DNA from: Orobanche coerulescens
Lineage: Eukaryota > Streptophyta > Magnoliopsida > Lamiales > Orobanchaceae
DNA length: 64,000 nucleotides
Assembly: GCA_033398695.1 (NCBI GenBank)
Contig: CM065814.1
Span: forward strand, 78,448,358 to 78,512,357
Direction: 5' to 3'
Shown piece after piece: positions 230 to 50,193 of this stretch. Below the pieces are notes generated by a model. It did not search any database and was not told where the DNA came from. It saw only the letters and a list, made by a program, of their open reading frames with translations. The position numbers and the translations under genes are program-made. The first letter of the stretch is position 1; each line of letters opens with the position of its first letter.

Positions 230-1667
230 TATCAATCTTGTACAAACTGATTTCGAACTTAAACCATCAATAATTCAACTTCTTCCATCTTTTCATGGTT
301 TGGAAAGAGAAGATCCTTATGCATGTCACGAAATTTCTCGACATTTGTTCTACTTTTCGATTCCAAAATTTCTCTGATGAATCTGTCAAACTTAGATTAT
401 TTCCATTTTCACTCAAAGATAAAGCAAAATTCTAGCTAAATTCTCCTCAAGCAAGAACAATTACGAGTTGGGACCAATTAGTGAATAAATTTCTCGCAAA
501 ATTTTTTCCAATGTCCAAAACTGATAGTCTTAGAAGAGAAATATCAGAATTTTTCCAAAAAGAAAATGAAGAATTTTATGAGTATTGGGAAAGATTTAAT
601 GATTTAATCCTTAAGTGTCCCCATCATGGTTTTGAAATATGGCGTTTGGTAAAATATTTTTATGACGGTTTAACTCCAAACAATCGCCAATTAATCCAAT
701 CAATGCATGGTGGAAAATTTTTTCACCTTATTGGAGACGAAGCTTGGAATGCACTAGAAAATAGGTCAATTAATTCACAACAATGGAATTCACTCGACTC
801 TAGAGCCAAATCGATGCATACGACCCCAAAAAAAGGTGGAATTTATGAGGTCAAACAAGATGTTGAAATAAAATCTCCTATAGAAGATTTAGTACGAAAA
901 GTGGATGCGTTAGTCTTGAAGCAATTCATTCCCTCGTCAAACTCAAAACATGAATTTTGCATTTCATGTGCGGAATCATTTCATTCATCTCAATCTTGTC
1001 CCTCTGGTCCACAAAATCAAGAAATTTTTAATGAAGAAGTCAATATGTTACATTCATATGGAAAATCTTCTGATACCCATTTGCTCCAACTTATAATCCA
1101 AATTGGAGGAATCATCCAAATTTTTCCTGGAAGCAAAATATGCCTCCAATGAATCAAGGAGGACATCAAATGAATATGTCAAATCAACAAAATGTCCGTC
1201 CTAATCAATATCCTCCAAATACTTATCAGTATCCTTCTATAGTGCCAAAGAAACCATCTTTGGAAGATACGTTGCAACAATTCATGCAATCTACTCAACA
1301 AATGTTCCAATCAACTCAGCAAGCTGTACAATCAAACTCACAGGCTATTTTTAAGCTTGAAACACAAATTGGTCAACTTGCAACAACTTTAGCTGAAAGA
1401 GAAAAGGGAAAATTTTCGAGTTAGTCCATCCCTAATCCTAAAGGACAATATGAAGTAAACTCTTCTAACGCAGAAGTTCAGTCCATAACTAACCTTAGAA
1501 GTGGAAAAGAAATACAAAAGCCTGAATATGATCCAGAAGAAAAATCAAATGAACCACAAGTTTCAAAACCAAAAGATTCTAAGGAAAAAGAAAAGCCTTA
1601 CGTTCCAAAAGCTCCATTTCCTGAAAGACTTATTCCAAAAGATAAAAGTGCGCAATACAACGATATA
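230..1667 (+). pseudogene. gag: gag polyprotein, Athila/Tat type, broken
   Basis: Retrotransposon gag encodes the capsid and nucleocapsid that package element RNA. The plant gag signature begins near 340 (LRLFPFSLKDKAKF, then TSWDQLVNKFLAKFFP from about 460) and continues through EFYEYWERFNDLILKCPHHGF. A Cys-rich stretch (CISCAESFHSSQSC) lies near 960. The C-terminal half is Asn/Gln/Pro-rich (residues encoded at 1140-1330) and ends in a Lys/Glu-rich linker to the protease. Lesions: a frameshift near 370, a TAG replacing a Trp codon at about 433, a frame change near 1140, and a TAG at 1422 where a Gln would be expected. No functional product is likely. Confidence 0.85.
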
Positions 1668-2224: not shown

Positions 2225-3421
2225 ATGACTGTTGAACTAAATATGTTTAACATTTCTCAACAACATGATGATCTTGATGATGTATGTGAGGTAAATATGA
2301 TAGAAAGTATGGGTCCTTATTTCTTTCCAAAAATAGATAATGATGATCTTTTTGAAAGCTGTCTTGATCATTTTGGATCAGATTTTGACATCGACAGTTC
2401 AATTAATGAAGTAAATTCTTTACTAGAGTCTAAACCATTATTGGATAATGATAAATGGAAAGCTAAAACTGAACCACTTGAGAGTCAAATGAATAAAGAA
2501 GTACATATTGAGGATTTAAAGATAGAGCTCAATCCATTACCTGAGTCTCTAAAATATGCATTTTTAGGACCATCAGAAACCCTACCTGTCATCATAACAT
2601 CTGATTTAGATGAAGAACGAGAAGATAAATTAATCAATGTCCTTAAAGAACATAAAGAAGCAATAGGCTGGACCATCTCCGATATTAAAGGTATTAGTCC
2701 TTCTATATGCATGCATCGAATTCATCTTGAAGAAAATGCGAAAACTTCCCGAGAATTTCAAAGAAGACTAAATCCTAATTTGAAAGAAGTTGTAAGAGCT
2801 AAAATAATCAAACTCTTAGATGTAGGGATCATCTACCCTATTTCTGACAGCTCTTGGGTTAGTCATGTTCATATTGTTCCAAAGAAATCTGGCATAACTT
2901 TAATCACGAATGAAGAAAATGAACTTGTTCCAACCAGAATTCAAACTGGATGGAGAGTCTGCATTGATTACAGAAAATTGAACTCTGTTACAAGAAAAGA
3001 TCACTTTCCACTTCCTTTTATTGATCAAATGCTAGAAAGGTTAGCCGGTCATGCTTATTATTGTTTTCTTGATGGATATTCCGGCTATAACCAAATTCCC
3101 ATTGCTCCTGAAGATCAAGAAAAAACCACTTTTACCTGTCCTTTCGGAACTTTTGCTTACCGACGAATGCCATTTGGATTGTGTAATGCACCTGCTACTT
3201 TTCAGCGGTGTATGATGAGCATTTTCTCTGACATGGTTGAGCGGTTTTTGGAAATTTTTATGAATGATTTTTCTATATTCGGGTCTAGCTTTGATGAATG
3301 TTTACACCACTTAACCCAAGTGTTGGTTAGGTGTAAGGAGAAAAATCTTGTCCTAAACTGGGAAAAATGTCATTTTATGGTTAAAAAAGGAATTGTCTTA
3401 GGACATGTGATTTCTGAAAAA
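2225..3421 (+). pseudogene. pol: reverse transcriptase, Athila/Tat type, catalytic Asp changed
   Basis: RNA-templated DNA polymerase of the element. Conserved RT blocks are present in order: GWTISDIKGISPSICMHRI, the primer-grip region with WRVCIDYRKLNSVTRKDHF, LDGYSGYNQIPIAPEDQEKT, FGTFAYRRMPFGLCNAPATF, and the catalytic block. In that block the expected F-M-D-D reads F-M-N-D (codon AAT, near 3261), which removes one metal-binding aspartate. A TGA at 3422 then cuts the frame off from the RNase H part. The 399 codons before the stop are otherwise open. The element cannot move with its own RT in this state; other copies might be intact. Confidence 0.9.
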
Positions 3422-3430
3422 TGAATTGAG

Positions 3431-4110
3431 ATGGACAAATCTAAAGTTGATTTAATATCCAGTCTTCCACCCCCACAAACGATTAAAGAAATTCGGTCAT
3501 TCTTAGGCCATGCTGGTTTTTACCGTCGATTCATCAAAGATTTTAGCAAAATCTCAAGGCCATTATGTAATTTACTTTCAAAAGACACACCTTTCGTATT
3601 TGATGATCATTGTATAAAAGCTTTTAAGACACTCAAATCTATGTTGAGCTCTGCACCTATCATCAAATCTCCAAACTGGAATCTTCCTTTTGAAATAATG
3701 TGTGATGCATCTGACTATGCCGTCGGTGTAGTATTGGGTCAAAGAGAAAATAAATTGCCAATTGTAATATATTATGCAAGCAGAACTCTAAATGATGCCC
3801 AATTAAATTATTCTACAACTGAAAAAGAATTGCTTGCAGTCGTTTTTGCCTTAAACAAATTTCGACCTTACTTGATTGGCTTGAAAGTCATAATTTACTC
3901 CGATCATGCTGCATTAAAATATCTTCTTTCTAAGAAAGATGCTAAACCTCGCTTGATCCGTTGGATTCTATTGTTACAAGAGTTTGACTTAGAAATTCGA
4001 GATAAAAAAGGTGCTGAAAATGTTGTTGCTGATCATTTGTATAGGCTAATCGTGAATTTTACTCATAAAGAACCTCCCATTAATGAAACTTTCCCTGATG
4101 AACAACTCAT
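3431..4110 (+). pseudogene. pol: RT connection and RNase H domain, Athila/Tat type
   Basis: Continues pol after the TGA at 3422. It begins with the RT thumb/connection motif ([21 protein letters not shown]) and goes on to RNase [18 protein letters not shown] supplies the first catalytic Asp, [20 protein letters not shown] the Glu, and [15 protein letters not shown] the next Asp. It ends with the characteristic [13 protein letters not shown]. RNase H removes template RNA during cDNA synthesis. The domain has no internal stop, but it is separated from the RT by the upstream stop, so it is part of a broken polyprotein. Confidence 0.88.
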
Positions 4111-5422
4111 GTCTGTTTCTCAAATACCTTGGTATGCCGACATTGTCAATTACCTTGTTACTGGTAACATGACATCTCATTGGAATAACCAAGATAAAAC
4201 AAAATTTTTAAACGAAGTAAAAAAATTCTTTTGTGATGATCCATATTTGTTCAAATATTGTCCTGATCAAATCATTAGGAGATGTATGCCAGAACATGAA
4301 CAACAAAATATCATTTCCTTTTGTCATGATCATGCATGTGGAGGTCATTTTAGTTCAAAGAAAACAACTACTAAAATTCTGCAATGTGGTTTTTATTGGC
4401 CAACACTTTCCAAAGATACACATTCATATTGCAGCACATGTGATAGATGTCAAAGATTAGGTCGAATTTCTAAACGAAATATGATGCCTTTAAACCCAAT
4501 TTTAATTATTGATATATTTGATGTTTGGGGCATAGATTTTATGGGACCTTTTCCAATTTCTTTTGGCAATCTTTACATCCTTGTGGCCTTCGATTATGTT
4601 TCAAAATGGGTAGAAGCAATTGCTTGCAAAACAAATTCCCCCACAAAGGCGTGGTAAATTTTTTCAAAGAAAATATTTTTTCCAGATTTGGAACACCACG
4701 AGCAATTATAAGTGATGGAGGAAAACATTTTTGTAATAAATTTTTGAATCATCTATTTAAAAAATATGGTGTTACACATAAAGTTGCTCCTCCTTATCAC
4801 CCTCAAACAAGTGGACAAGTTGAAATTTCAAACAGAGAAATCAAACATATTCTTGAAAAAACTATTAATCCTACAAGGAAAGATTGGTCTTTGCGATTGA
4901 ATGATGCATTGTAGGCTTACCGTACTGCTTTTAAAACTCCCATCGGAATGTCTCCATTTAGGCTTGTCTTTGGAAAACCATGTCATTTGCCTGTTGAATT
5001 TGAACATAGAGCATACTGGGCCTTAAAATGATTAAATTTTTCATTAGACATGGCTGGAATTCATAGGAAACTTCAACTAAATGAATTGGAAGAAATCAGA
5101 AATGATGCTTATGATTGTGCAATGAAATATAAGGACAAAATGAAATTTTTTTCATCATGAACACATTTTGAGAAAAACTTTTTCTCCTGGTCAAAAAGTC
5201 CTTTTTAACTCTCGTTTGTTATTATTTCCAGACAAGTTGCGTTCACGATGGTCTGGTCCATTTATTATTCATACGGTCTATCCTCACGGAGCTGTAGAAA
5301 TTGAAAATCCAAAAAATAGTAATATTTTCAAAGTAAATGGTCAACGGTTAAAACCATATTTGGAATTAAAATCTTTTGACGTAGAAGAGATTCTTCTTAA
5401 GGACGCCGATATTGTGGATTAA
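4111..5422 (+). pseudogene. pol: integrase, Athila/Tat type, several stops and frameshifts
   Basis: Integrase inserts the cDNA. A zinc-binding H-H-C-C module is visible ([11 protein letters not shown], then [13 protein letters not shown]). The catalytic core follows with GIDFMGPF (first Asp), IISDGGKHF (second Asp) and [19 protein letters not shown] (Glu), so the D-D-E residues are retained. The C-terminal region reads [11 protein letters not shown] then [18 protein letters not shown]. Lesions: a frame change near 4655, TAG at about 4912 in place of Trp, TGA near 5030, and a frame change near 5155 just before [10 protein letters not shown]. No chromodomain follows, as expected for this lineage. 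Confidence 0.87.
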
Positions 5423-5538: not shown

Positions 5539-6084
5539 ATGGAACAAACTTTGAAAACAATTGAAAAAAGATTTCCTTTTCTTAGTAAAAAATTCATTTT
5601 GAAACTTTACCAAGCCAGAGTTGAAAGGATGAGGTTGCTTATGAATAACGACATACCTTTTGATATTCGATTCATTATTGAATCCAAAGTGAGAATAGCG
5701 GGTGAATTCACGGAAACACCAACTAGATTTTTACCAGGGCTTGGAAAGAGTTCATATGCCAAGAAACGACGAGCAAAGAAAATCGCCGTTTGCTATAAAT
5801 GTGCTAGGTGGAATTGTGATTCAAGATGTCGATCTTTAGGAATTCCTTCCACAAACAGAGAAGATAAAATTCAGTTCATCAAGGATGGTCTGAATAAGGA
5901 GAATTTAGATGATATCGAAATTTCTCTTGACACGTATCCTAGTGGACTCGTACATTATGGGATTCGATGTTTGTGGAATAAATTCAAACCAGAATATGAA
6001 CAACGTCTTGGGAATCTGACGTTAAAAGACCCTGTTTGCCAATTTGTAAGAAAATTGGATGGGAAACTTCTCCCCGACTCATAG
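5539..6084 (+). CDS. basic zinc-finger protein resembling carlavirus nucleic-acid-binding cysteine-rich protein, carried by the retrotransposon
   Basis: Intact 181-residue ORF 116 bp after the integrase end. Residues 1-55 are predicted mostly helical, with hydrophobic and basic residues. A strongly basic segment, GKSSYAKKRRAKK (residues 69-81), leads straight into a four-cysteine cluster C85-x2-C88-x4-C93-x3-C97, followed by DKIQFIKDGL. Established knowledge: the 3'-proximal cysteine-rich proteins of carlaviruses have this order (helical N-terminus, G-x-S-x-Y-A basic patch, compact zinc finger, short F-I-containing tail) and act in nucleic-acid binding, gene regulation and silencing suppression. 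The C-terminal 60 residues are an extension I do not recognise. Inference: nucleic-acid binding, possibly nuclear. It occupies the env-like slot of the Athila lineage. No stop or frameshift, unlike gag-pol. The family link is by eye only; an unrelated zinc-binding protein is the alternative. Confidence 0.6.
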   Translation: MEQTLKTIEKRFPFLSKKFILKLYQARVERMRLLMNNDIPFDIRFIIESKVRIAGEFTETPTRFLPGLGKSSYAKKRRAKKIAVCYKCARWNCDSRCRSLGIPSTNREDKIQFIKDGLNKENLDDIEISLDTYPSGLVHYGIRCLWNKFKPEYEQRLGNLTLKDPVCQFVRKLDGKLLPDS

Positions 6085-6306
6085 AAGGCGTTTAAGCCGT
6101 TTCTGAACGTAAAATCAGAGGAAGATGTGAGCCACAATCAGAACTACTGTATATACATGTGAGTATCTTTATTTTTTGTCGTTTTTTTTAGATTTTCTGA
6201 ATAAAAAAATGTGATACGCAATAAATGCATTCATTATTCTATTGAGTAGTTGAAGCGCAATTACCGCGGTCACGGATTTTATAAATCTTTTTACTTTATT
6301 TTGCAT

Positions 6307-6315
6307 CTATAAATA
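6307..6315 (+). promoter_or_regulatory. candidate TATA box for the LOG-like ORF
   Basis: The sequence ctataaata lies 80 bp upstream of the ATG at 6396. It is followed by a pyrimidine-rich stretch rich in tct and ttc that resembles a plant 5' untranslated leader. A second weaker box (ttataaatc) is at about 6279. This is compatible with an internal promoter that would express the LOG-like ORF independently of the LTR, but AT-rich plant DNA gives such matches by chance. Confidence 0.45.
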
Positions 6316-6395
6316 AACATTGCAGTTGTTTCTTTTCTGCATCCCTCAAACTTGTATTCTTTTCATTTTCTCTCTAAGTAATTTCTTTTCAAAAA

Positions 6396-7043
6396 ATGGA
6401 ATCATCATCTTCCACAAAAAGATTTAACTCCATCTGCATTTTTGGTGGAGTTAGTCATGGGAAAGAGGCTTGCTTTACTGAAGCAGCCCACAACTTGGGT
6501 CGTACCTTAGGACAAAAATGCATTCATGGAGGAGGAAGTCTAGGATTAATGGGACGTGCTGCTGCTTCTTCCTATATGGAAGGAGTAAAAGTGTTGGGAA
6601 TCATTCCAAAATCTCTGGCTGAAAGTAAAATCACCGGAGCAACCATTGGAGATGAGTTCAGAGCTGTGAGTATGAAAGACCGCATAACTCACATGATGAA
6701 TAATTTTGATGCCTTTATCACCCTCCCCGGTGGTTTTGGCACTCTTAAAGAACTTTTTCATGTGGTTACCAGAGCCCAGCTAAATGTTCATACGAAACCA
6801 ATAGGTCTGCTAAATGTCAATGGTTTCTTCGATGGTTTACTATCTTTCATCAACTACTCTTCTGAAAAAGGTTTTATTTCTGAGCGTGCTAAACGAATCA
6901 TAGTTGTTGCAACAACACCAGAAGAGCTGATCAAAAAACTTATTGCATTTGTTCCTGAACTAGATCCAGCTCTAGCTAATATTGTTTGGATGGAAGATTT
7001 CACTGTGCGGAAACGCAAAATTGATACATTCCTTTCCCTCTGA
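6396..7043 (+). CDS. LOG-like: LOG-like cytokinin riboside 5'-monophosphate phosphoribohydrolase, carried by the retrotransposon
   Basis: LOG enzymes convert cytokinin nucleotides directly to active free-base cytokinins. This intact, intronless 215-residue ORF covers the whole family fold: SICIFGGVSHG (residues 12-22), IHGGGSLGLMG (43-53), GVKVLGIIPKSL (63-74), the catalytic-Arg block VSMKDRITHMM (Arg96), the signature PGGFGTLKE (111-119, ending in the catalytic Glu119), RAQLNVHTKPIGLLNVNGFF (126-145), and a C-terminal helix with TTPEELI. Length matches plant LOGs (about 210-230). Differences from usual plant copies include Gly for Cys in the first block (FGG) and Lys at the x before Glu119. 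Plant LOG genes normally have several introns, so their absence suggests capture through RNA. The ATG at 6396 is 312 bp after the zinc-finger ORF. Cytosolic; no signal peptide is seen. Confidence 0.88.
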   Translation: MESSSSTKRFNSICIFGGVSHGKEACFTEAAHNLGRTLGQKCIHGGGSLGLMGRAAASSYMEGVKVLGIIPKSLAESKITGATIGDEFRAVSMKDRITHMMNNFDAFITLPGGFGTLKELFHVVTRAQLNVHTKPIGLLNVNGFFDGLLSFINYSSEKGFISERAKRIIVVATTPEELIKKLIAFVPELDPALANIVWMEDFTVRKRKIDTFLSL

Positions 7044-8772: not shown

Positions 8773-8785
8773 GTGTGGGGGAATT
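8773..8785 (+). promoter_or_regulatory. polypurine tract of the Athila-like element
   Basis: The purine-rich stretch gtgtgggggaat directly precedes the 3' LTR start. The preceding text (gcaaaagataagtgtgggg) is a typical Athila/Tat PPT context. It primes plus-strand DNA synthesis. Confidence 0.8.
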
Positions 8786-9616
8786 TGTTTAGTATATTTT
8801 GAGTAATATTTTTATTAGTATTTTATGTATATAATTGTGTGTTTTGTGTGATAATTTATTCGTTTTACCATATATTTATATTATTTCATTTTGTTAGAAT
8901 TTTCTATAATTTTATGTCATTTTTGGATAATTAATTGAAATTAAATTATATCTGCAGGTTAACCAACCGGTACAAGACAGATCAATTGGTTCGAGGGCGA
9001 TATTTTTACAAAATTGAAATATAGTCACGACTGGTCACACTTTATTCGTCTCGTCGAGATGATCTTTTTAAAAAAAAAAATTCATCCGAATCCGAGTTCG
9101 TATGAAGAAGTTATGACCGTTCGAAGGACAATTAAATAGACGGACCATATTGTGCCACGTGTCAACACCTGATTGGACCGGAATTTCAACTATGTGCTGA
9201 TGTCATCCATGACATCAGCACCCATGGGCAGCCGTGTATTATTGGGGGTGGGATTTTAATATGTTAAAAAATTATTATTTTATTAATTTTGCAGTAGTAT
9301 AAATAGGGGATGAATGTGTAGTGTTTTGGGAGGAGAAAAGAGGAGAAAAAAAGGAGAAAAAATAGAGAGATATTATTGTAAGGGAGAGAAATGAAAATGT
9401 TGTGTAATAAAATTATTTTTGTGTAATAATATTATGGAATATTTATTTATTTGTGTTGTTATTATGAGTGAGTAATTTTCTTTTACTGGGTTATGATGAA
9501 ACCATGTCTATATTATTATTAATATTTATATAATAATTCCAAATAAATGTTTTTAACGATTATGATTTTCGCTTCAATAGGGGAATATTATTTCATCAAT
9601 TATATCACGTATTTTT
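8786..9616 (+). repeat. 3' LTR of the Athila-like element, first part
   Basis: Starts with TG (tgtttagtatattttgag) right after the polypurine tract. A TATA box (tataaatagg, 9298-9307) is followed by a purine-rich transcribed region. The LTR is cut at 9616 by element A; the last five bases (ttttt) are repeated after A ends, so they are the target-site duplication. The remainder is at 26372-26883. Confidence 0.8.
9298..9305 (+). promoter_or_regulatory. TATA box in the Athila-like 3' LTR
   Basis: tataaata followed by gggg, about 510 bp into the LTR. It fits the U3/R boundary promoter of the element. Confidence 0.6.
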
Positions 9617-11333
9617 TGTAATAACCGCAATTTCGGATTTCTGGTAATTTTATTTTTTCAGCGGAGGTCCGTTTTGACGACTCGCTTGGGACCGTTTCAT
9701 CATTCTGAGAATGATTAATTCTGCACTTTTTGTCATCCGAGTTCGTTTCAGTACTGTTTTGTTGAGTCCCGTGTTTCTTAACGACTTTTCCGCACTCGAG
9801 TTTGATTCTTGTGAATCTCATCCGAAATTACTGTTTCAAGTTTCCCGTAAGTCCGTTTAACTTTGTTAGACGTGTTGTGAACTTCGGTTTGGTTATTCGA
9901 TCACGTATCGTGATTTTCGGACGTTTTGGGCCATTTTTGTAATTTCCCAAAGTTTAGGGTAATTACCTTCCGTTGTCGAATTTCGAGCCTTCAGGTGGTC
10001 GGAATCGTGTGTTCTCTTAGCTCTTAGATTCGTATTTGCGAGTACTTCGTAACCGTATATTCGATTTGTATTCAGGTTCGGGTTTCGGTGTCGTTTTCTT
10101 GAGTTCAGTGTTATTAAACGACTTTTCCAAGTATGAGTTCGACTTTGTAAAATCACCATAAATTCTTGGAAACTCCAATGATTTTGACTCTTTTCAATAT
10201 TATAGAGCATCAAGTTAGCTTTCCAATTGTTCAAACGGTGAGTCAATCGGAGTTCGGACAAGAGAGTTATGGTCGAAATAGCTTAGACACTCATTTTCCA
10301 GTTTTGGCCGAGCAGCCTGTACCGTGAGCCGCGGCACATGCCGGCAGGGCCGCGGCACACTGCCGAGTCACTGCCTCGGCATACCCGTCCGGGCCGCGGC
10401 ACACTCATGTTTCAATTATCGGCCAACCCCTCTGTACCGTGAGCCGCAGCACATGCCGGCACGGCCGCGGCACACTGCCGAGTCACTGCCGCGGCACACT
10501 CGTCCGGGCCGCGGCACACTGCCGATCACTGGGGGCAGATTCGGCCCTATGCCGCGACACACTTCGGCTGGGCCGCGGCACACAGTGCAGATCAGCCTAT
10601 TTAAGGCCATCAGACATTTTTCTTCAGCCATTTCTCACTCGTTTTCTTCCCTTCCGCGACTGGAGCTTGGTTAATCATGGAGAGATGTTGTTGGACAATC
10701 AATCCATGAAGTCTTGGAGTTCATATCATCAATCATCTATCCTATAACATCCTCCGATCTACCGAATCAGGTCAGATTTCCTAGAAATCTAGTTTTGGGG
10801 AATTTGGGTATTTTGGTTGATTTCATCCGTTTTATCCGATTTAACTTAGGATTATGATGGATTGATGATTATTTAGATGTATTATATCATTTCCCTTGTT
10901 ATTCCATGGTTGGATCATATCGATTCGTTGTTTGGGTCGAGTTCTTGACCGACGCCTAGAAGGTGTCCGGTAAAATGTCATAGAGGGGTTTTCGGGCGTT
11001 CTACGATTATTCTTCCTCGTATGATCGATGATTCATTGATTATATGTTGTTAGGGTCGAGTTTCTTGCGAAGAAACCGATTCGGAACCCTTCCATTCGTT
11101 GTCTTCTTCGGGGTCCGAGCTTCCCGGTCGAATCGTGTTCTTCGCAGTATTCGGTAGCGGTTATTAAGGCAAGTATTTTACTATACGAATTGTGTCTTGT
11201 GAATAGGGACGTCGTATTATGGTTGTGATGCATTAGTTTACTTTCGTGTATATACTTCGTATGAATTGATTATTACGAACAATTGATGGTAATAATGATA
11301 CCTTCACTTAGTTAACATTTTGGGAATCGTGTT
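9617..11333 (+). repeat. 5' LTR of element A, first part
   Basis: Starts tgtaataacc, the usual start of Tekay/Del LTRs. It contains an array of GC-rich palindromes at 10327-10586 and a TATA-like tatttaagg just after it. Cut at 11333 by element B (target duplication gtgtt, 11329-11333 and 19590-19594). Confidence 0.9.
10327..10586 (+). repeat. array of GCCGCGGC palindromes upstream of the TATA region, element A 5' LTR
   Basis: About nine copies, some degenerate, of a unit with core gccgcggcacac, spaced irregularly by roughly 12-60 bp. The core GCCGCGGC is its own reverse complement. The array ends a few bases before agcctatttaagg, which may act as the TATA element. The same array occurs at 24198-24456 in the 3' LTR. 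Confidence 0.85.
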
Positions 11334-11934
11334 TGTAATAACCGCAATTTCGAATTTCGGTAATTTTCTTTTTTTTGGCGTAAGTCTGTGTTGACGACTC
11401 GCTCATGACCGTTTCGTCATTCCGAGAATGATTAATTCTGCACTTTTTGTCATCCGAGTTCGTTTCGGTATCGTTTTGTTGAGTTCCGAGCTTTTTAGCG
11501 ACTTTTCCGCACTTGAGTTCGATTCTTGCGAATCTAATCCGAAACTGTTGTTTCGAGTTTCGAGTAAGTTCATTTGATGTTATTATTCGTGTTGCGAGCT
11601 TTGGTTTGGTGTTTCGATCGCGTATCATGATTTTCGGACGTTTTGGGCCATTTTCGTAATTTCCCAAAGTTTTGGGTAATTACTTCCGTTGTCGAATTCC
11701 GAGCCTTCGGGTGGTCGGAATTGTGTGTTCTCTTAGCTCTTAGATTTGTCTTTGCGAGTACGTCGTAACCGTATCATCGATTCGTATTCAGGTTTGGGTT
11801 TCGGGGTCGTTCGGGCCGTCGGAGTTGGCCCTGGCCGAGTCATGGCCGGGCAATCTGGGCCCAGGCCGGCACTGGCCGAGTCAAGGCCGGTAGTGCTCGG
11901 CAGCTTCTGGCCGAGTCACGGCCGGTAGTGCTCG

Positions 11935-16760: not shown

Positions 16761-19589
16761 TGTAATAACCGCAATTTCGAATTTCGGTAATTTTCTTTTT
16801 TTCGGCGGAAGTCTGTTTTGATGATTCGCTCATCACCGTTTCGTCATTCTGAGAATGATTAATTCTGCACTTTTTGTCATCCGAGTTCGTTTCGGCATCA
16901 GTTTGTTGAGTTCCGAGCTTTTTAGCGACTTTTCCGCACTTGAGTTCGATTCTTGCGAATCTCGTCCGAAACTGTTGTTTCGAGTATCTCGTAAGTTCAT
17001 TTGATGTTATTATTCATGTTGCGAGCTTTGGTTTGGTGTTTCGATCATGTATCGTGATTTTCGGACGTTTTGGGCCATTTTCGTAATTTCCCAAAGTTTT
17101 GGGTAATTACTTCCGTTGTCGAATTCCGAGCCTTCGGGTGGTCGAAATTGTGTGTTCTCTTAGCTCTTAGATTCGTCTTTGCGAGTACGTCGTAACTGTA
17201 TCATTGATTCGTATTCAGGTTTGGGTTTCGGGGTCGTTCGGGCGGTCGGAGTTGGCCCCGGCCGAGTCATGGCTGGGCAATCTGGGCCCAGGCCGGCACT
17301 GGCCGAGTCACGGCCGGTAGTGCTCGGCAGCTTCTGGCCGAGCAGGCCGTACCGTGGGCCGCGGCACATGCCGGCAGGGCCGCGGCACACTCTGTGGCAT
17401 TTTTCGGCCAAACCGATCAGACGGTGCCGCGGCACACGCCGCGGCCATGCACACCGCCACCACCGGGAGCCATTTTTGGGCTTGTGCCGCGGCACACTCC
17501 CATTGGGCCGCGCACACTGTGCTTATTTATGGCCCCGCACGGTTTTTGGCCATTTTTCTCCTTCTTCTCCTTCTCTTCCGCGGCTGAGGGTGATCTTACC
17601 ATGGAGCCATGTTGATTAACAACAAATCCATGAAGTTCTTGAGTTCATATCATCAATCAATCATCCGTTATCATCCTTTGATCCAGCGAATCAAGGTAAT
17701 CTTCCTTAGAACCCTAATTTCGTGAATTTGGGGGTTTTTGCGTTTTTGTCCGATTCGTTCCGTATTATTGATTAATTCATAATGGATATGATTAATCTTG
17801 GTAGTATTCTTGTGTTTAACATCATTTAATCCATTGTTCTTCGTCGAATCGAAGTATATTTCTTGATTTCCTTCAAATTAACTTTTTGGGGGATTTGTTC
17901 TCGATCTCGTTTTTCATCCATTTCTGATGGATCAATTATGGTTAAATGATGTTGTTAAACATATTCTATGGATTGTATATCCATATTTCAACTTGGAATT
18001 CCATTTTCGTGTTTTGTCGGGACGAATCGTGTTCTTGGCCGTTTTGGGGAAAACGCTTGAACATTCGTCGTTCGCTCGTTGAATTCGGCGGCTTTGGGTC
18101 GTACTTTGGAATTCATTTTCGTTGTTATTGTCTTCGTTCGTAGTTCATTGTTGTGGATTGTCGTTCGGTGGAGTCGGCGAGTTCGTAGTCGGTTCGTGCC
18201 AACCTACTTCGGTCGATTCTCCGCGTTGTTCTTATTCGAGTCAAGTACCTTGTCCATACTATTCTTGTTTTGTGGATATGATAATTGGTGATCGTCTTGG
18301 TGTGTTTGTTTATTTGTTTGAAACGAGTTTTTCAAAAGATTCGGCTAGCCTCGTTAAAGGCTCACTTTCAAAACGCGTGTGTTTTGTACATTGTGTGGGT
18401 TGTAAGTGACTATGTGAATCCTATGGATATGTTTGGTATTGATGATGCACTTGGTATTTGCGTATGGACGTATATTTTTTCATTTCGGTGCATTGTGGTT
18501 TGACGTGGTGTTTTGCTAAGTGTTTGATGCCTCTGGGTGAATTATTTGGATATCCTTGGTGTGATATGTTATTTGTGCATGATTGATTCGCTAGCCAGCT
18601 CGGGAGGGTCCTTCGAGGCCTCGGGTGGGATTCATGGTGGCGTCCTGGTCCTAGGCGATGCCTGTGCTTGATTGTTTCGCTAGCCAGCTCGGGAGGGTCC
18701 TTCGAGGCCTCGGGTGGGATTCATAGTGGCGTCCTGGTCCTAGGCAATGCCTGTGCGTGTATGTTTTGTGAATGTGTTTGCTCACCTCGGGAGGGTTCGA
18801 CGGGGCCACAGAGGGAGTCCAATGGTTTCGCCCTGGATTCACGAGTGAAACTTCACCATTGTGCGTGACGTGGGTTTTAACCTTGTGTATTGTTGTTGGT
18901 TTCATTTGTGAAAAATAAAACCTTTGGGCTGTGACCCCTATTGATTTTGGAAAGATAAGGATTTGATAATCCTAAATTATTTCTATTATAACTCTCGATG
19001 GCATTTTAAACCGTTTTATAAATTATTTTCTCTTGATTTGTGATCTTTCGGTTTTGAAATGTTTTACCCAAACTCATGCCTCGGGAAGTACTTTTCGTTA
19101 GTTTGAATCCTTGAGGATTTCCTGGTTATTGTTATTCGTGGAATGTGAATTGTATGGCTCGTATTTGCACTTTGTACTTGCACTAGCAAAACAGTGGAGT
19201 TTTCTAACCCCCGAGTATTCGGGGGGTGGATGTCTATTTTGGCATTCAGGTTTTGGAGCATAGCACAGGGTCGGCACGAAGGATGATGAAAGATGAACGA
19301 TACTAATCACATGAGGATCCGTTGCTGTCGTATTGGTCTAGTTGTATTTTCTTTTCCGCTGCAGCATATTTTTTTTTCCCGTTGTACGGGTGTGGTTGTA
19401 TTTTAACCCCTGCGTGGGCATGAGTTGTATTTGAGTTGTATGTATTTATTGAAAGACCAAATCGGTCTACTGAGTCATTTTAGCCTTAAGGGCGATGTGT
19501 AGATGTTTGATTTTAGTTATCAGCCTGGTAGATCCTCCAGGAGAGGGTCTACGGCGTGTAATATCCCTGAGTGGATTGGGGGTGTTACA
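16761..19589 (+). repeat. 3' LTR of element B
   Basis: Near-identical to the 5' LTR across most of its length, with only scattered substitutions visible by eye, which suggests a fairly recent insertion. It carries the palindrome array at 17350-17518 and a TATA-like tatttatgg after it. It lacks two of the three long minisatellite units. Ends gggggtgttaca before the target duplication. Confidence 0.92.
17350..17518 (+). repeat. array of GCCGCGGC palindromes, element B 3' LTR
   Basis: Same module as at 11935-12117, with units gggccgcggcacatg, gggccgcggcacact, tgccgcggcacacgc and tgccgcggcacactc. It ends just before cttatttatggcc. Confidence 0.82.
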
Positions 19590-23488: not shown

Positions 23489-26366
23489 TGTAATATCCGC
23501 AATTTTGGATTTCTGGTAATTTTATTTTTTTATGGGAGCTCCGTTTTGACGACTTGCTTGGGACCGTTTCATCATTCTGATAATGATTAATTCTGCACTT
23601 TTTGTCATCCGAGTTCGTTTCAGTACTGTTTTGTTGAGTCCCGTGTTTCTTAACGACTTTTCCGCACTCGAGTTCGATTCTTGTGAATTCGTCCGAAATT
23701 ACTGTTTCGAGTTTCTCGTAAGTCCGTTTAACTTTGTTAGACGTGTTGTGAACTTCGGTTTGGTTATTCGATCACGTATCGTGATTTTCGGACGTTTTGG
23801 GCCAATTTCGTAATTTCCCAAAGTTTGGGGTAATTACCTTCCGTTGTCGAATTTCGAGCCTTCGAGTGGTCGGAATCGTGTGTTCTATTAGCTCTTAGAT
23901 TCGTCTTTGTGAGTACTTCGTAACCGTATATTCGATTCGTATTCAGGTTCAGGTTTCGGTGTCGTTTTCTTGAGTTCAGTGTTATTAAACGACTTTTCCA
24001 AGTATGAGTTCGACTTTGTAAAATCACCATAAATACTTGGAAACTCCAAAGATTTTGAATCTTCTCAATATTGTAGAGCATCAAGTTAGCTTTCCAATGG
24101 TTCAAATGGTGAGTCAATCGGAGTCCGGACGAGAGAGTTATGGTCGAAAAAGCTCAAACACTCATTTTCCAGTTTTGGCCGAGCAGCCTGTACCGTGAGC
24201 CGCGGCACATGCCGGCAGGGCCGCGGCATACTGCCGAGTCACTGCCGCGGCACATCCGTTCAGGCCGCGGCACACTCATATTTCAATTATCGGCCAACCC
24301 CACTGTACCGTGAGCCGCGGCACATGCCGGCAGGGCCGCGGCACACTGCCGAGTCACTGCCGCGGCACACTCGTCCGGGCCACGGCACGCTGCCGATCAC
24401 TGGGGGCAGATTCGGCCCTATGCCGCGTTACACTTCGGCTGGGCCGCGGCACACAGTGCAGATCAGCCTATTTAAGTCCAGCAGACGTTTTTCTTCAGTC
24501 ATTTCTCACTCGTTTTCTTCCCTTCCGCGGCTGGAGCTTGGTTAATCATAGAGAGATGTTGTTGGACAATCAATCCATGAAGTCTTGGAGTTCATATCAT
24601 CAATCATCCATCCTATAACATCCTCCGATCTACCGAATCAGGTCAGATTTCCTAGAAATCTAGTTTTGGGGAATTTGGGTATTTTGGTTGATTTCATCCG
24701 TTTTATCCGATTTAACTTAGGATTATGATGGATTGATGATTATTTAGATGTATTATATCATTTTCCTTGTTATTCCAAGGTTGGATCGTATCGATTCGTT
24801 GTTTGGGTCGAGTTCTTGACCGACGCCCAGAAGGTGTCCGGTAAAATGTCATAGAGGGGTTTTCGGGCATTGTACGATTATTCTTCCTCGTATGATCGAT
24901 GATTCATTGATTATATGTTGTTAGGTTCGAGTTTCTTGCGAAGAAACCGAGTCGGAACCCTTCCGTTCGTTGTCTCCTTGGGGTTCCGAGCTTCCCGGTC
25001 GAATCGTGTTCTTCGGAGTATTCGGTAGTGGTTATTAAGGCAAGTATTTTACTATACGAATTGTGTCTTGTGAATAGGGACATCGTATTATGGTTGTGAT
25101 GCATTGGTTTACTTTCGTGTATATACTTCGTATGAATTGATTATTACGAACAATTGATGGTAACCATGATACCTTCACTTAGTTAACATTTTGGAAATCG
25201 TGTTGGATGTGCAAATCATCTAAGTTTGTGCCGGGCATGGTCGGTCATTATTGAGTTGTTGTGATGATTATGATGTGTGTTGTCTTGGTCTACATACTTG
25301 ATTGTACATTTCGGTGTAATGTGGAATGGCTTGACATTTGATGATTATGAGTTGTGTCGTGTCGATATGTGCGTGTGTGTTCCAGGTAGGGTCTGACGAG
25401 GCCTCTGGAATTCGGTACATGATGTGTACGAACAAGGTGTGTGATCCAGGTAGGGTCTGACGAGGCCTCTGGAGTTCGGTAAATGATGTGTACGAACGAT
25501 GTTTGGGGCCGGGTAGGGTCCGTCGAGGCCTCCGGAGTTCGGTACATGATGTGTACGAACAATGTGTGCGGTCCGGGTAAGGTCCGTCGAGGCCTCCGGA
25601 GTTCGGTACATGATGTGTACGAACAATGATCGTGTTATAGTGCTTGTTTGGGTAACCTTTTAAATATGGGTCTCGGACTCATAATGATATCTTATCTCGT
25701 GTGTTTTGAATCGAGAATCGGACCAAGACCCTACTGTTTTCGAAAAGGTTTTGTAAATTGGGACTTGAGGTCCATAAGAATTTCTGCTTTAAAAATCCCC
25801 GAGATGATGTGTTCCTTTTCAAATATCTCTTGCTTGAGTTCGAAATTCTAAAACTTCTCGGAAACATTTTTATAATTGTTTTCCGTATTAAATTCGTACT
25901 TGCTATTTACTTGTTGCATTTCGTATCGTTTTATACTTGCACTAGTAAAATAGTGGAGTTTTACTAACCCCCGAGTAATCGGGGGGTGGATGTCTGTTCT
26001 GCGTCCAGGTACATGCAGGTTCAGGGGAGCAGTCACAGGATTGGCACAAGGGGATGACGAGCTACGATACTAATCAAGAGTCGAGAGTTGGTAGAGTTTG
26101 GTTGTATTGTCAAAGTTGATTCAGTCTTCCGCTGTATTGTGTTTCGACCCCTGTGTGGGTAATGTTGTTAGTCAGTTCTGTTGATAGAGTTGTGTGACCT
26201 CATCGGTCTGTGTGTTTATGTGTAAGTGACCTTAACGGTCTGTATTATTATATTGTTTGACCTGGCCGGGCAAGCATTTGGTTGTTTATGGATGTTTAGC
26301 CTGGTAGATTCTTGTGGGAAGGGTCTACGGCGTGTAATATTCCCATACGGTTTTGGGGGTGTTACA
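23489..26366 (+). repeat. 3' LTR of element A
   Basis: 2878 bp, starting tgtaatatccgc and ending gggggtgttaca. Same order of features as the 5' LTR: palindrome array 24198-24456, TATA-like tatttaag, 64-bp minisatellite 25383-25628, ccccgagtaatcggggg hairpin near 25975. Followed by the target duplication ttttt. Confidence 0.92.
24198..24456 (+). repeat. array of GCCGCGGC palindromes, element A 3' LTR
   Basis: Copy of the array at 10327-10586 with a few substitutions inside the cores (for example gccacggcac and gccgcgttac). Several changes are at CpG sites. Confidence 0.85.
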
Positions 26367-47340: not shown

Positions 47341-48030
47341 GTTTCCGGGTTTGCCGCCAGACCGAGAGGTTTAGTTTACTGTTGATTTAGAGCACCAATT
47401 TCTAAGACGCCATACTGTATGGTGCCTGCTGAGATGCTTGAGTTGAAGAAACAGTTAGGAGAGCTGCTAGATATGGGGTATATTCTACCGAGCACTTCGC
47501 CTTGGGGCGCACCGGTCTTGTTTGTGAAGAAGAAGGATGGGTCACTTCGTCTGTGTATCGACTATCGAGAGTTGAACAAAGTGACTACCAAAAACAAATA
47601 TCCGCTCCCGAGGATTGATGACTTGTTTGACCAACTGTAAGGGGCAACCCTATTTTCTAAGATTGATTTGAGATCGGGGTATTATCAGCTCCAAGTGAAG
47701 GATTCCGACATTTCGAAGATGGCCCTTTGGATGAGATATGGTCATTACGAGTTTGTGGTTTTGCCTTTTGGGCTAACCAACGCACCAGCCGTGTTCATGC
47801 AGCTTATGAACAAAGTTTTTATCGAGTACCTCGATAAGTGTGTAGTTATTTTTGTCGACGATATCCTGATTTACTCGAGGAGCGAGTAGGATCATGCCCG
47901 TCATTTGCATATTGTGCTAGGTATTTTGAGAACTCAGCATCTTTTCGCGAAGTTCTCAAAGTGTGAGTTTTGGTTATGGGAGGTTATGTTTCTCACCCAC
48001 GTGATCTCGGTCGAGAGTGTTCGTATGGAC
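47341..48030 (+). pseudogene. pol: reverse transcriptase of element C
   Basis: RT blocks: [55 protein letters not shown], a TAA at 47638 for Gln, [38 protein letters not shown], and the catalytic [14 protein letters not shown] with both aspartates intact. A TAG at 47887 follows, then [20 protein letters not shown]. Two stops are the main damage in this domain. Confidence 0.9.
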
Positions 48031-48640
48031 CCACATAAAATAGAGGCAGTGTTGGATTGGGCGCCGCCCAAAAATGTGAAGGAGGTCCGCAGTTTTCTGG
48101 GTTTGGCCGGGTATTATCGTAGATTTGTCGAGGGGTTCTCTAAGCTCGCTCTACCACTGACCCAGTTGTTACAGAAATCAGAGAAGTTTGTGTGGACCGA
48201 CGAGAGACAGAAGAGTTTTGAGGAATTGAAGAAACGGTTGACGACCGCTCCCATTTTGGCTTTACCAAGTCGTAATAAGGGTTTCTCAGTTTTTAGTGAT
48301 GCTTCGGGCCAAGGGCTCGGATGTGTACTCATGGAGCACGGGAAGACAATTGCATATGCTTCCCATCAGTTGAAACCGTACGAGTTGAATTACCCTACGC
48401 ACGATCTTGAGTTGGCCGCGGTTGTATTTGCATTGAAGATCTGGCGTCACTACTTGTATGGCTCATCGTGTCAGATTTTCACCGATTACAAGAGCCTGAA
48501 GTACATTTTTACGCATAAAGAGCTTAACATGAGACAACGGAGATGGTTGGAGTTGGTTAAGAATTACGACCTTGAGATCCTTTACCATACGGGCAAGGCA
48601 AATGTGGTGGCAGATGCCTTGAGCCAGAAATCAGTGTCGA
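48031..48640 (+). pseudogene. pol: RT connection and RNase H domain of element C
   Basis: [22 protein letters not shown] begins the connection. RNase [21 protein letters not shown] (Asp), [22 protein letters not shown] (Glu), [20 protein letters not shown] (Asp), and [17 protein letters not shown] at the end. The 368-codon frame from 47905 is open through this domain into the integrase. Confidence 0.9.
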
Positions 48641-50193
48641 TTCGGGCGCTTGAGTTACTTACGGCCCAACCAGGACTTCAACGAGAGTTTATGACGTTGA
48701 GCATTGAGATTGTACTACCAGAGAGTTCCGGGCAGTTGCGTACTCTTGAGATTTCTTCGTCTCTAGCCGACAACATTAAATCGGGACAGTTGGAAGACCC
48801 GATGTTTATTCAGCTTCGAGAGAATGTAGGGAAGGGGAAAGCCCTGGGAATCGTGATACATGAGGATGGTGTGTTGAGATTTCGAGGTCGGCTTTGTGTT
48901 CCGAATGACTTTGAATTGAGGCAGAGTATTATGAGAGAGGCTCACGCGTTACCTTACTCAATCCATCCGGGCTCGAGTAAAATGTATAAAGATTTGAGGA
49001 AGAATTTCTAGTGGAATGACATGAAGAATGAGGTAGTTGAGTTTGTGGCTAAGTGTTTGACTTGTCAACAAGTCAAAATCGAGCATCGACGGCCAGTCGG
49101 ATTGTTGAAACCCCTTCCCATCCCGGAATGGAAGTGGGAAGATATTTCCATGGATTTTGTCACGAACTTGCCGAGGACGAAGACCGAAATGAATATGGTG
49201 TGGGTGATTGTAGACCGACTGACTAAGTCGGCACATTTTCTGGGCATCAAGGATACTTGGGGTCCAGAAAAATTGGCTCGTATTTTTATCGCGCAAATAG
49301 TGAGACTTCATGGTACGCCGAAGACTATTATTTCATATACAGATGGCCGGTTTGTATCGCATTTCTGGCAGGCGGTACATAAGGCATTGGGGACACGTTT
49401 GCATTTGAGTACATGTTTCCACCCTCAGATCGACGGACAGTCCGAGCGTACCATTCAGACGTTCAAGGATTTGTTGCGCGCGTGTGCGTTAGACTGGAGT
49501 AGTGACTGGGAGGAGCATATGGCCTTGATCGAGTTTACGTATAATAATAGCTGGCACGCGTCGATTAAGATGGCACCGTATGAGGCGCTTTATGGCCGAT
49601 GTTGCCAATCACCGATTTGTTGGGATGATCTGTCCGATCTAGTTGGCACGGAGCCGGATCTTGTGTTAGAGACGAGGGACAAAATTGAGTTGATTAGAAA
49701 GAGAATGTTGGCAGCTCAGAGTCGAAAAAAGTCTTATGCGGACGTTAGGCGTCGACCTTTGGATTTTGAGGTGGGAGATCATGTTCTGTTGAAAATGTCT
49801 CCGTCGAAGGGAGTTTTCCAATTTGGGAAAAAGGGGAAGCTCAGCCCGAGGTATATTGGGCCTTTCGAGATATTAGAGAGAGTTGACGAATTGGCGTACC
49901 GTTTGACTTTGCCTCCGTCGTTGAGTCATGTGCATAGTGTATTTCATGTCTCTCAGCTGAGAAAGTATGTTCCGGACCCATCCCATGTTATTGATTTCGG
50001 AGACGTGCTGATTGAGAAAGACGTCACGTTCGAGGAGAGGCCCGTTAAAATCTTGGAGTGTCGAGACAAAAAATTAAAGCACAAAACCATTCCCTTGGTT
50101 AAAGTACAATGGTCGAGGCACGGAGTAGAAGAGGCAACATGGGAGTTGGAGGAGGATATGCGTTCGAGGCACCCCGAGCTTTTTGATTCTTAA
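48641..50193 (+). pseudogene. pol: integrase with chromodomain, element C
   Basis: Zinc module: [21 protein letters not shown], a TAG at 49009 for Trp, then CLTCQQVKIEHRRP. Catalytic core: DISMDFVTNLPRT (first Asp), WVIVDRLTKSAHF, then IISYTDGRFVS, where the expected S-D-R-D has Tyr in place of the usual catalytic Asp, and HPQIDGQSERTIQTFKDLLRA (Glu). C-terminus: VGDHVLLKMSPSKGV, LSPRYIGPFEIL, HNVF-like SVFHVSQLRKYVPD. Chromodomain: IPLVKVQWSRHGVEEATWELEE to the stop at 50193. The final 390-codon frame (49021-50193) is open. Confidence 0.9.

Follow-up and report, generated by a model that had tools for sequence, protein, structure and literature searches.

A LOG-family gene paired with a carlavirus-type zinc-finger gene in LTR retrotransposons of a broomrape, Orobanche coerulescens

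LTR retrotransposons of plants can carry accessory genes, often between pol and the 3′ LTR, and those that share this feature with the locus described here include gene23 of Grande, TRP28 of Retand and the aORFs of sunflower Athila and Tekay elements. Two Athila-like elements are reportedly similar to LOGL4, according to the abstract of Steinbauerova et al. 2011. In the available parts of the respective sources, the Grande and Retand genes are described as antisense and of no known function (PMC7264820, PMC11963269), a promoter of its own has been reported for gene23 (PMC7264820, PMC11963269), and the sunflower authors suggest that Tekay aORF proteins take part in modulation of RNA silencing (PMC11728184). 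Another precedent is found in orchid Ty3/gypsy elements encoding an AlkB-type m6A demethylase, where a domain shared with flexiviruses has become fixed in an element family, although the domain is a different one and, in the accessible text, a single ORF rather than a pair has been added (PMC9289625). The closest described systems are from Citrus and Populus: according to the accessible part of the same source, consensus sequences of LTR retrotransposons from two Citrus species (several per species) and, under a laxer filter, from Populus trichocarpa contain the YgdH domain, ‘otherwise found in LONELY GUY’, and YgdH/LOG-bearing elements are credited to Steinbauerova et al. 2011 (PMC9289625). 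The statement in the first-pass annotation of this DNA that no described retrotransposon family carries LOG was therefore mistaken.

The element studied here has the LOG-family domain in common with these Citrus and Populus Ty3/gypsy elements, whose account, in its available sections, mentions no carlavirus-like partner, no carriers lacking gag-pol, no changes of pocket or tail and no broomrapes (PMC9289625). It differs from Grande and Retand in that its two accessory genes are in sense orientation, one related to an enzyme and the other to viral proteins, and are also carried without gag-pol. The finding is thus partly new: LOG in plant Ty3/gypsy elements was already in print, while the LOG/carlavirus-like pairing, carriers devoid of gag-pol, the alterations of pocket and tail and the occurrence in broomrapes were not found in the literature within reach (subscription papers and supplements lay outside it). 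Accessory genes of plant retrotransposons are mostly of obscure function, and here two of them in one lineage, a relative of viral silencing suppressors and a relative of a hormone enzyme with a rebuilt pocket, yield testable predictions. High copy number, fixed gene order and spacing in the fetched copies, purifying selection between two element types (A and B, below) and compact LTR elements without gag-pol were all observed. Our reading, to which we give a probability of about 0.6, is that LOG is one half of a selected two-gene accessory cassette, located between pol and the 3′ LTR of an Athila-like lineage, that would serve to manipulate the host.

The window (the whole stretch of 64,000 nucleotides analysed) contains a LOG-family frame at 6396-7043 (+), uninterrupted and intronless from ATG to TGA (215 codons), with the motifs GGGSLGLMG (6528-6554), MKDR (the Arg block; 6672-6683) and PGGFGTLKE (6726-6752). 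The protein, in which the catalytic Arg and Glu are present, matches Pfam PF03641 (119 bits; cut-off 27) and TIGR00730 (145.6 bits; cut-off 96.35) but scores 94 bits, below the cut-off of 300, with the NCBI equivalog NF058542 (cytokinin riboside 5′-monophosphate phosphoribohydrolase). Among proteins of solved structure it is closest to Arabidopsis LOG3 (2a33, E 5.8e-50; the best match) and LOG8, and an AlphaFold model (pLDDT 76, pTM 0.74) gave 2a33 as top Foldseek match (E 1.6e-20, target TM 0.90), so that the predicted fold is the LOG (Rossmann-type) fold. A basic C-terminal tail (RKRK, 7008-7019) falls within residues 194-215, which have pLDDT under 50 and are predicted to be disordered. Three residues directly before the GGG loop (~6527/6528; IVY in the protein P0002) are absent, although present in all 20 other copies fetched from the source genome, and Lys replaces the motif’s first Glu, which is found in 19 of those 20. 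The frame is open, as first annotated, but ‘complete’ was too strong a word for it.

LOG lies on the sense strand, 3′ of the reverse transcriptase (RT), RNase H and integrase frames and 5′ of the polypurine tract and 3′ LTR. All pieces of the element are on the + strand: open pieces of gag (481-1152; PF03732 Retrotrans_gag, 52.2 bits), protease (1668-2102; PF13650, 21.7 bits, below the cut-off of 24.3), RT (2225-3424; PF00078, 103.5 bits) and RNase H with the integrase zinc-binding domain (3431-4657; PF17917, PF17919, PF17921), then an integrase core fragment (4525-4914; PF00665, 29.1 bits, below the cut-off of 32.6), and finally the polypurine tract GTGTGGGGGAATT (8773-8785), immediately followed by an 822-bp 3′ LTR (TG...CA; 8786-9607) with relatives at 90-95% in three fetched copies (L026, L028 and L029). 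The ORF and the profile matches thus bear out the placement of an intronless sense-strand LOG frame between integrase and polypurine tract of an Athila-like element, as first proposed. In the open pol pieces of this broken copy, Pfam detected a single RNase H stretch but no chromodomain; in the Athila lineage (non-chromovirus OTA, Neumann et al. 2019) both chromodomain and aRH are absent, according to the available part of that classification (PMC6317226). The gag-pol region of the window copy is disrupted by stops and frameshifts, with the open RT, RNase H and integrase pieces spanning 2225-4914. In the 10 kb that precede the window, nothing matching the 3′ LTR was detected, and the copy may therefore be truncated or split.

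Other features were seen in and around this element. The Rfam family snoR71 (RF00097) matches 526-632 (-), antisense in the gag region, with 59.7 bits (gathering 40); either the family model extends to retroelement sequence, or the element has spread a snoRNA-like piece. Repeats of another element start at ~9615, just past the 3′ LTR; repeats beginning TGTAATA(A/T)CCGC are found at 9615-10300, 11332-11811, 16761-17238 and 23489-24171, two of them preceded by a purine-rich stretch, as at the start of an LTR. A second Ty3/gypsy element (47905-50193, +) has RNase H and Tf2-1-like SH3 domains, and its integrase zinc-binding and chromodomain matches fall below cut-offs.

Upstream of LOG, at 5539-6084 (+), lies a gene for a 181-aa C4 zinc-finger protein of the carlavirus nucleic-acid-binding (cysteine-rich) type. 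The first-pass annotation, correct in listing LOG among the genes of the element, had overlooked both this gene and the gag-pol-less elements described below. The protein matches PF05515 (Viral_NABP, 26.1 bits; cut-off 23) and PF01623 (Carla_C4, 25.7 bits; cut-off 20.9), and has a basic stretch (KKRRAKK, 5761-5781) beside a C-x2-C-x4-C-x3-C motif (5791-5829). Above-cut-off matches to both families and a four-cysteine motif next to a basic stretch are shared with the cysteine-rich proteins of carlaviruses/flexiviruses, such as p12 of chrysanthemum virus B (CVB). Unlike these, the element protein is 181 aa long with Pfam matches at residues 39-120 only, and is chromosomal and multicopy; the cysteine spacing of the carlavirus proteins also differs from C-x2-C-x4-C-x3-C. 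Its AlphaFold model is poor (pLDDT 59, pTM 0.31). A protein search gave 294 hits from 319 candidates, and among the best 120 listed are proteins of Orobanche, Xanthoceras, Acer, Populus and Rhamnella and of many unnamed contigs, in clusters of up to 566 members, so the zinc-finger gene is itself widespread and multicopy. The cysteine motif occurs in 105 of these 120, and when the window protein was aligned with 44 of them, 37 (PF05515) and 35 (PF01623) of the 45 members matched at E <= 0.001, with best E values (2.3e-8 and 1.5e-8, respectively) that are modest though above cut-offs. A search of IMG/VR confirmed no relative of either the LOG or the zinc-finger protein. Viral cysteine-rich proteins are reported, in the available parts of the sources, to be RNA silencing suppressors, and CVB p12 also to be a transcription factor linked to hyperplasia (PMC7588395, PMC12172455).

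The source genome was searched over 3.65 Gb (1279 contigs). With the LOG query P0001 the best 150 scored places, out of 14,103 first-look candidates (unverified), lay at 89-100% identity, and with Sesamum LOG3 as query, meant to retrieve host LOG genes and their introns, the best 150 scored hits were single near-full-length stretches at 46-50% identity that look like element-borne LOGs (retro-LOGs). Twenty copies of 10 kb were fetched, hand-chosen among the top hits of three LOG queries. All contain LOG, and 19 (all but L037) contain the zinc-finger gene ~310 bp upstream of it at near-constant spacing. The assignment of LOG to the element is upheld by this recurrence in the same place in many copies and by purifying selection (below), where a single copy would have pointed to a chance insertion and Ka/Ks of ~1 would have argued against function; insertion of a host LOG into a dead element is ruled out by the many copies with fixed position.

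These copies fall into two types. Type A (the window and L026-L030) shares the LTR or flanks of the window element; gag-pol of the Athila-like family is present, as in the window, in four of the 20 fetched copies (L027-L030), and L026 has LTR and cassette, with gag-pol not within reach of the fetched sequence. Type B (L031-L045, 15 copies) has LTRs unlike those of type A. Gag-pol of the Athila-like family was not found in 16 of the 20 fetched 10-kb copies, namely L026 and all 15 of type B, in which L038 and L039 gave only weak RT or RNase H matches (33-44%). Twelve of the 15 type B copies have the cassette enclosed by a pair of LTR-like repeats. Among the 21 sequences scanned, a PBS-like GCCGTTGCCGGGG was detected after the left repeat in 10, all of type B. 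L041 and L044 are whole elements of 7276 and 6463 bp, with LTRs of 1994 and 1601 bp, the PBS-like GCCGTTGCCGGGG just past the 5′ LTR, a G-rich tract before the 3′ LTR and no gag-pol hit; 5-bp target site duplications (GTCGC and CCTCT, respectively) were found in both, the only copies fetched with both ends. These two are non-autonomous LTR retrotransposons; for the remaining 13 type B copies, a subset of the features of such elements was seen or looked at. Divergence between LTRs (K2P 0.005-0.033; 12 copies) corresponds to about 0.2-2.4 My at rates of 1.3e-8 and 7e-9. Since two LTR starts are seen within type B, at least three kinds of LTR carry the cassette. Types A and B are similar across the cassette, including ~130 bp on the 5′ side of the zinc-finger gene and ~330 bp on the 3′ side of LOG.

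Between types, median pairwise omega was 0.21 for LOG (90 pairs, median dS 0.30; LOG dN, like the LOG stop counts below, is biased low because copies were chosen by LOG score) and 0.20 for the zinc-finger gene (52 pairs, dS 0.36), which was not selected by score in the sampling of copies. Within types omega was 0.24-0.39, with single pairs up to 1.0 (LOG) and 2.4 (zinc finger). After 12 duplicate loci were dropped, 33 distinct LOG and 32 zinc-finger copies were compared for fixed differences, with the majority codon at >=70% in each type taken as fixed. N/S at fixed differences was 16/30 for LOG (omega 0.16) and 9/17 for the zinc-finger gene (omega 0.14), versus 128/90 (ratio 0.44) and 140/93 (ratio 0.39) for variants within groups (Fisher, p 0.003 and 0.02, respectively). 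In-frame stops interrupt LOG in 0/10 type A and 4/23 type B copies, and the zinc-finger gene, counted in its longest matched stretch only, in 2/10 and 12/22; most of the latter occupy private positions among the 19 fetched copies with the gene, which is additionally split by frame breaks in L026, L030 and L042. By a rough expectation, the zinc-finger stops are too many for such young LTRs, and single copies therefore do not seem to need the gene. Stops and low omega together fit a lineage under constraint in which individual copies decay.

The 311-bp spacer between the two genes (6085-6395, +) is a possible LOG promoter. It contains a TATA-like CTATAAATA (6307-6315), 89 bp upstream of the LOG ATG, that occurs nowhere else in the window on either strand and lies 87-97 bp before the spacer end in 20 of 21 copies (missing from L044). 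Spacer divergence between types A and B (median K 0.177) is below that of the sequence behind LOG (0.255) and of synonymous sites (0.30-0.36). Because the TATA-like site is kept and the spacer diverges less than its flank and synonymous sites, transcription of LOG from its own core promoter is plausible. A genome search with the spacer scored 40 copies of it at 97-100%.

These data also bear on whether the two genes do anything at all. Host and viral gene fragments trapped by chance and amplified with the element, without function, would account for the many copies with zinc-finger stops (mostly private) or frame breaks and for the damage to the window copy itself, but they would not be expected to show omega of 0.14-0.16 at fixed differences versus 0.39-0.44 within groups, near-constant spacing and a retained TATA-like site, nor to form a clade with members in Orobanche, Rehmannia, Paulownia and further contigs. 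Columns that do not vary among host-type LOGs are, moreover, more often invariant in retro-LOGs than other columns are (32/103 vs 13/106, p 0.001), and a passenger origin of this kind appears very improbable.

The 120 LOG3-like proteins sampled represent host LOGs in what follows, 16 of them, plus LOG8, being used for a tree. In this tree of 55 proteins, 38 retro-LOGs lie on one side of a branch with 100/100 support and the 17 host LOGs on the other; retro-LOGs thus form a single clade relative to the host LOGs sampled, and one capture versus several is judged within these only. Xanthoceras is outermost in the clade, followed by Paulownia and Rehmannia, with Orobanche nested. Linkage to elements was seen in the source genome, in Orobanche (by way of the linked zinc-finger gene) and, with less certainty, in Xanthoceras, while the retro-LOGs of Rehmannia, Paulownia and ENA contigs are presumed to belong to elements. 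Pairing of LOG and zinc-finger ENA contigs by equal length proved unreliable and was discarded, one 905-bp match being too short for both full frames.

In the available part of a structural account, Arg99 and Glu122 of LOG are catalytic and Met96, His97, Lys100, Glu125 and Trp129 form the prenyl-group pocket, whose residues are identical in the LOGs of Arabidopsis, rice, Claviceps and Corynebacterium (PMC4979012). Residues were counted in three sets of retro-LOGs (non-Orobanche, Orobanche-database and our own source-genome rows), using only rows with a residue at the position and leaving out the gene models P0078 and P0095 (Xanthoceras) and P0090. Both catalytic residues are mostly kept, Arg99 in 20/22 non-Orobanche, 78/93 Orobanche-database and 19/20 own rows and Glu122 in 22/22, 86/91 and 20/20, respectively. 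The pocket is remodelled: Lys100 is kept in 0/22, 0/93 and 0/20 rows, Glu125 in 0/22, 0/92 and 0/20, and Trp129 in 22/22, 0/89 and 0/20, while all three are kept in 120/120 host-type LOGs. In our own copies Met96 is retained (20/20), His97 is replaced by Gln (19/20), Lys100 by Ile (19/20; Thr in one), Glu125 by His (20/20) and Trp129 by Arg (19/20; Lys in one). By sequence, P0078 and P0095 retain the canonical Lys and Glu.

The simplest use of such a gene would be as a cytokinin booster, with the retro-LOG freeing active cytokinin and driving division of the host cell and the zinc-finger gene incidental. Largely conserved Arg99 and Glu122, a fold closest to that of Arabidopsis LOG3, purifying selection on LOG and the canonical pocket of the two Xanthoceras models are in keeping with this. 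However, Lys100 and Glu125 survive in no counted retro-LOG row, Trp129 is lost from all Orobanche-database and own rows, and the supposedly incidental zinc-finger gene accompanies LOG in 19/20 fetched copies under similar constraint. Loss of prenyl-binding residues, together with an NF058542 score far below cut-off, disfavours a plain cytokinin-activating role, which we regard as unlikely.

The C-terminus has changed as well. A basic KRK-like tail is found in 18/22 non-Orobanche retro-LOGs, 46/49 near-full-length Orobanche-database rows and 18/19 own copies, and a C-terminal LxLxL in 21/22, 0/49 and 0/19, respectively; neither is present in any of the 120 host-type LOGs. LxLxL resembles the EAR motif, which binds co-repressors. 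A remodelled pocket with catalysis mostly kept could reflect a phosphoribohydrolase of changed specificity, acting on another nucleotide (e.g. a modified or immune-signalling nucleoside monophosphate), and the common basic tails, predicted to be disordered, and the LxLxL outside Orobanche could instead reflect a nuclear adaptor whose tail binds co-repressors. Orobanche lacks LxLxL altogether, though, the presumed EAR function follows from a general motif rule, and the canonical Lys and Glu in two Xanthoceras models do not suit a changed pocket; on balance this explanation is possible but less than even in our estimation. It is compatible with the view of a host-manipulating cassette.

For the cassette reading preferred here, a mechanism can be outlined. 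The gag-pol-less elements would be copied in trans by Athila enzymes, and LOG would be driven by a core promoter of its own. The zinc-finger protein, like the cysteine-rich proteins of carlaviruses, may dampen RNA silencing and/or act in the nucleus, weakening silencing or reprogramming transcription, and the LOG protein may hydrolyse a nucleoside 5′-monophosphate, whether or not a cytokinin precursor. Together the two proteins would reduce silencing and promote division, rendering the host cell more permissive for new copies to be transcribed and inherited. In a further, tentative extension that we hold to be rather doubtful, the gag-pol-free broomrape elements would be dedicated carriers of the cassette that borrow Athila enzymes, and their LOG-fold hydrolase would have moved off cytokinin specificity; the zinc-finger protein would be a virus-type silencing suppressor or transcription factor, the LOG relatives outside Orobanche would bear a basic tail with a co-repressor-binding motif, and the elements would earn their keep by making the cell permissive in trans. 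As elements without gag-pol part the accessory genes from those for replication, whether the former aid spread can be asked directly.

A database search with the LOG protein gave 874 hits from 1154 candidates, and broomrapes account for 96 of the best 120 clusters listed: 55 from Orobanche minor (418 member sequences), 33 from O. hederae (392) and eight from O. gracilis (21). Neighbouring locus tags link LOG and zinc-finger genes (OROMI_020768/020769 and OROMI_009434/009435, with OROGR_024430/024434 four numbers apart), and by sequence the single gene model P0053 holds both. Some database members of the retro-LOG clade bear names of cytokinin enzymes, and such members need to be checked before being treated as hormone genes of the host. 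Cytokinin supplied by LOG-type enzymes is a plausible lever in parasitic plants, hence this very abundant source of LOG in a broomrape genome matters for annotation.

Several database gene models have unusual structures. P0078 and P0095 of Xanthoceras each contain two LOG domains or pieces; in P0078 two LOG stretches are recognized by Pfam, with a stretch between them that by eye resembles the protease region of the window element. In O. gracilis, P0090 (OROGR_024430) joins LOG with a PF14223 domain, which we take to be a copia-type gag; this fusion would be an artefact of gene modelling or the product of a transfer between elements. In O. minor, P0124 (OROMI_020855), in which Pfam finds the zinc-finger families only, has a protease-like stretch, recognized by eye, fused to the zinc-finger protein, and this fusion hints at further rearranged carriers of the cassette.
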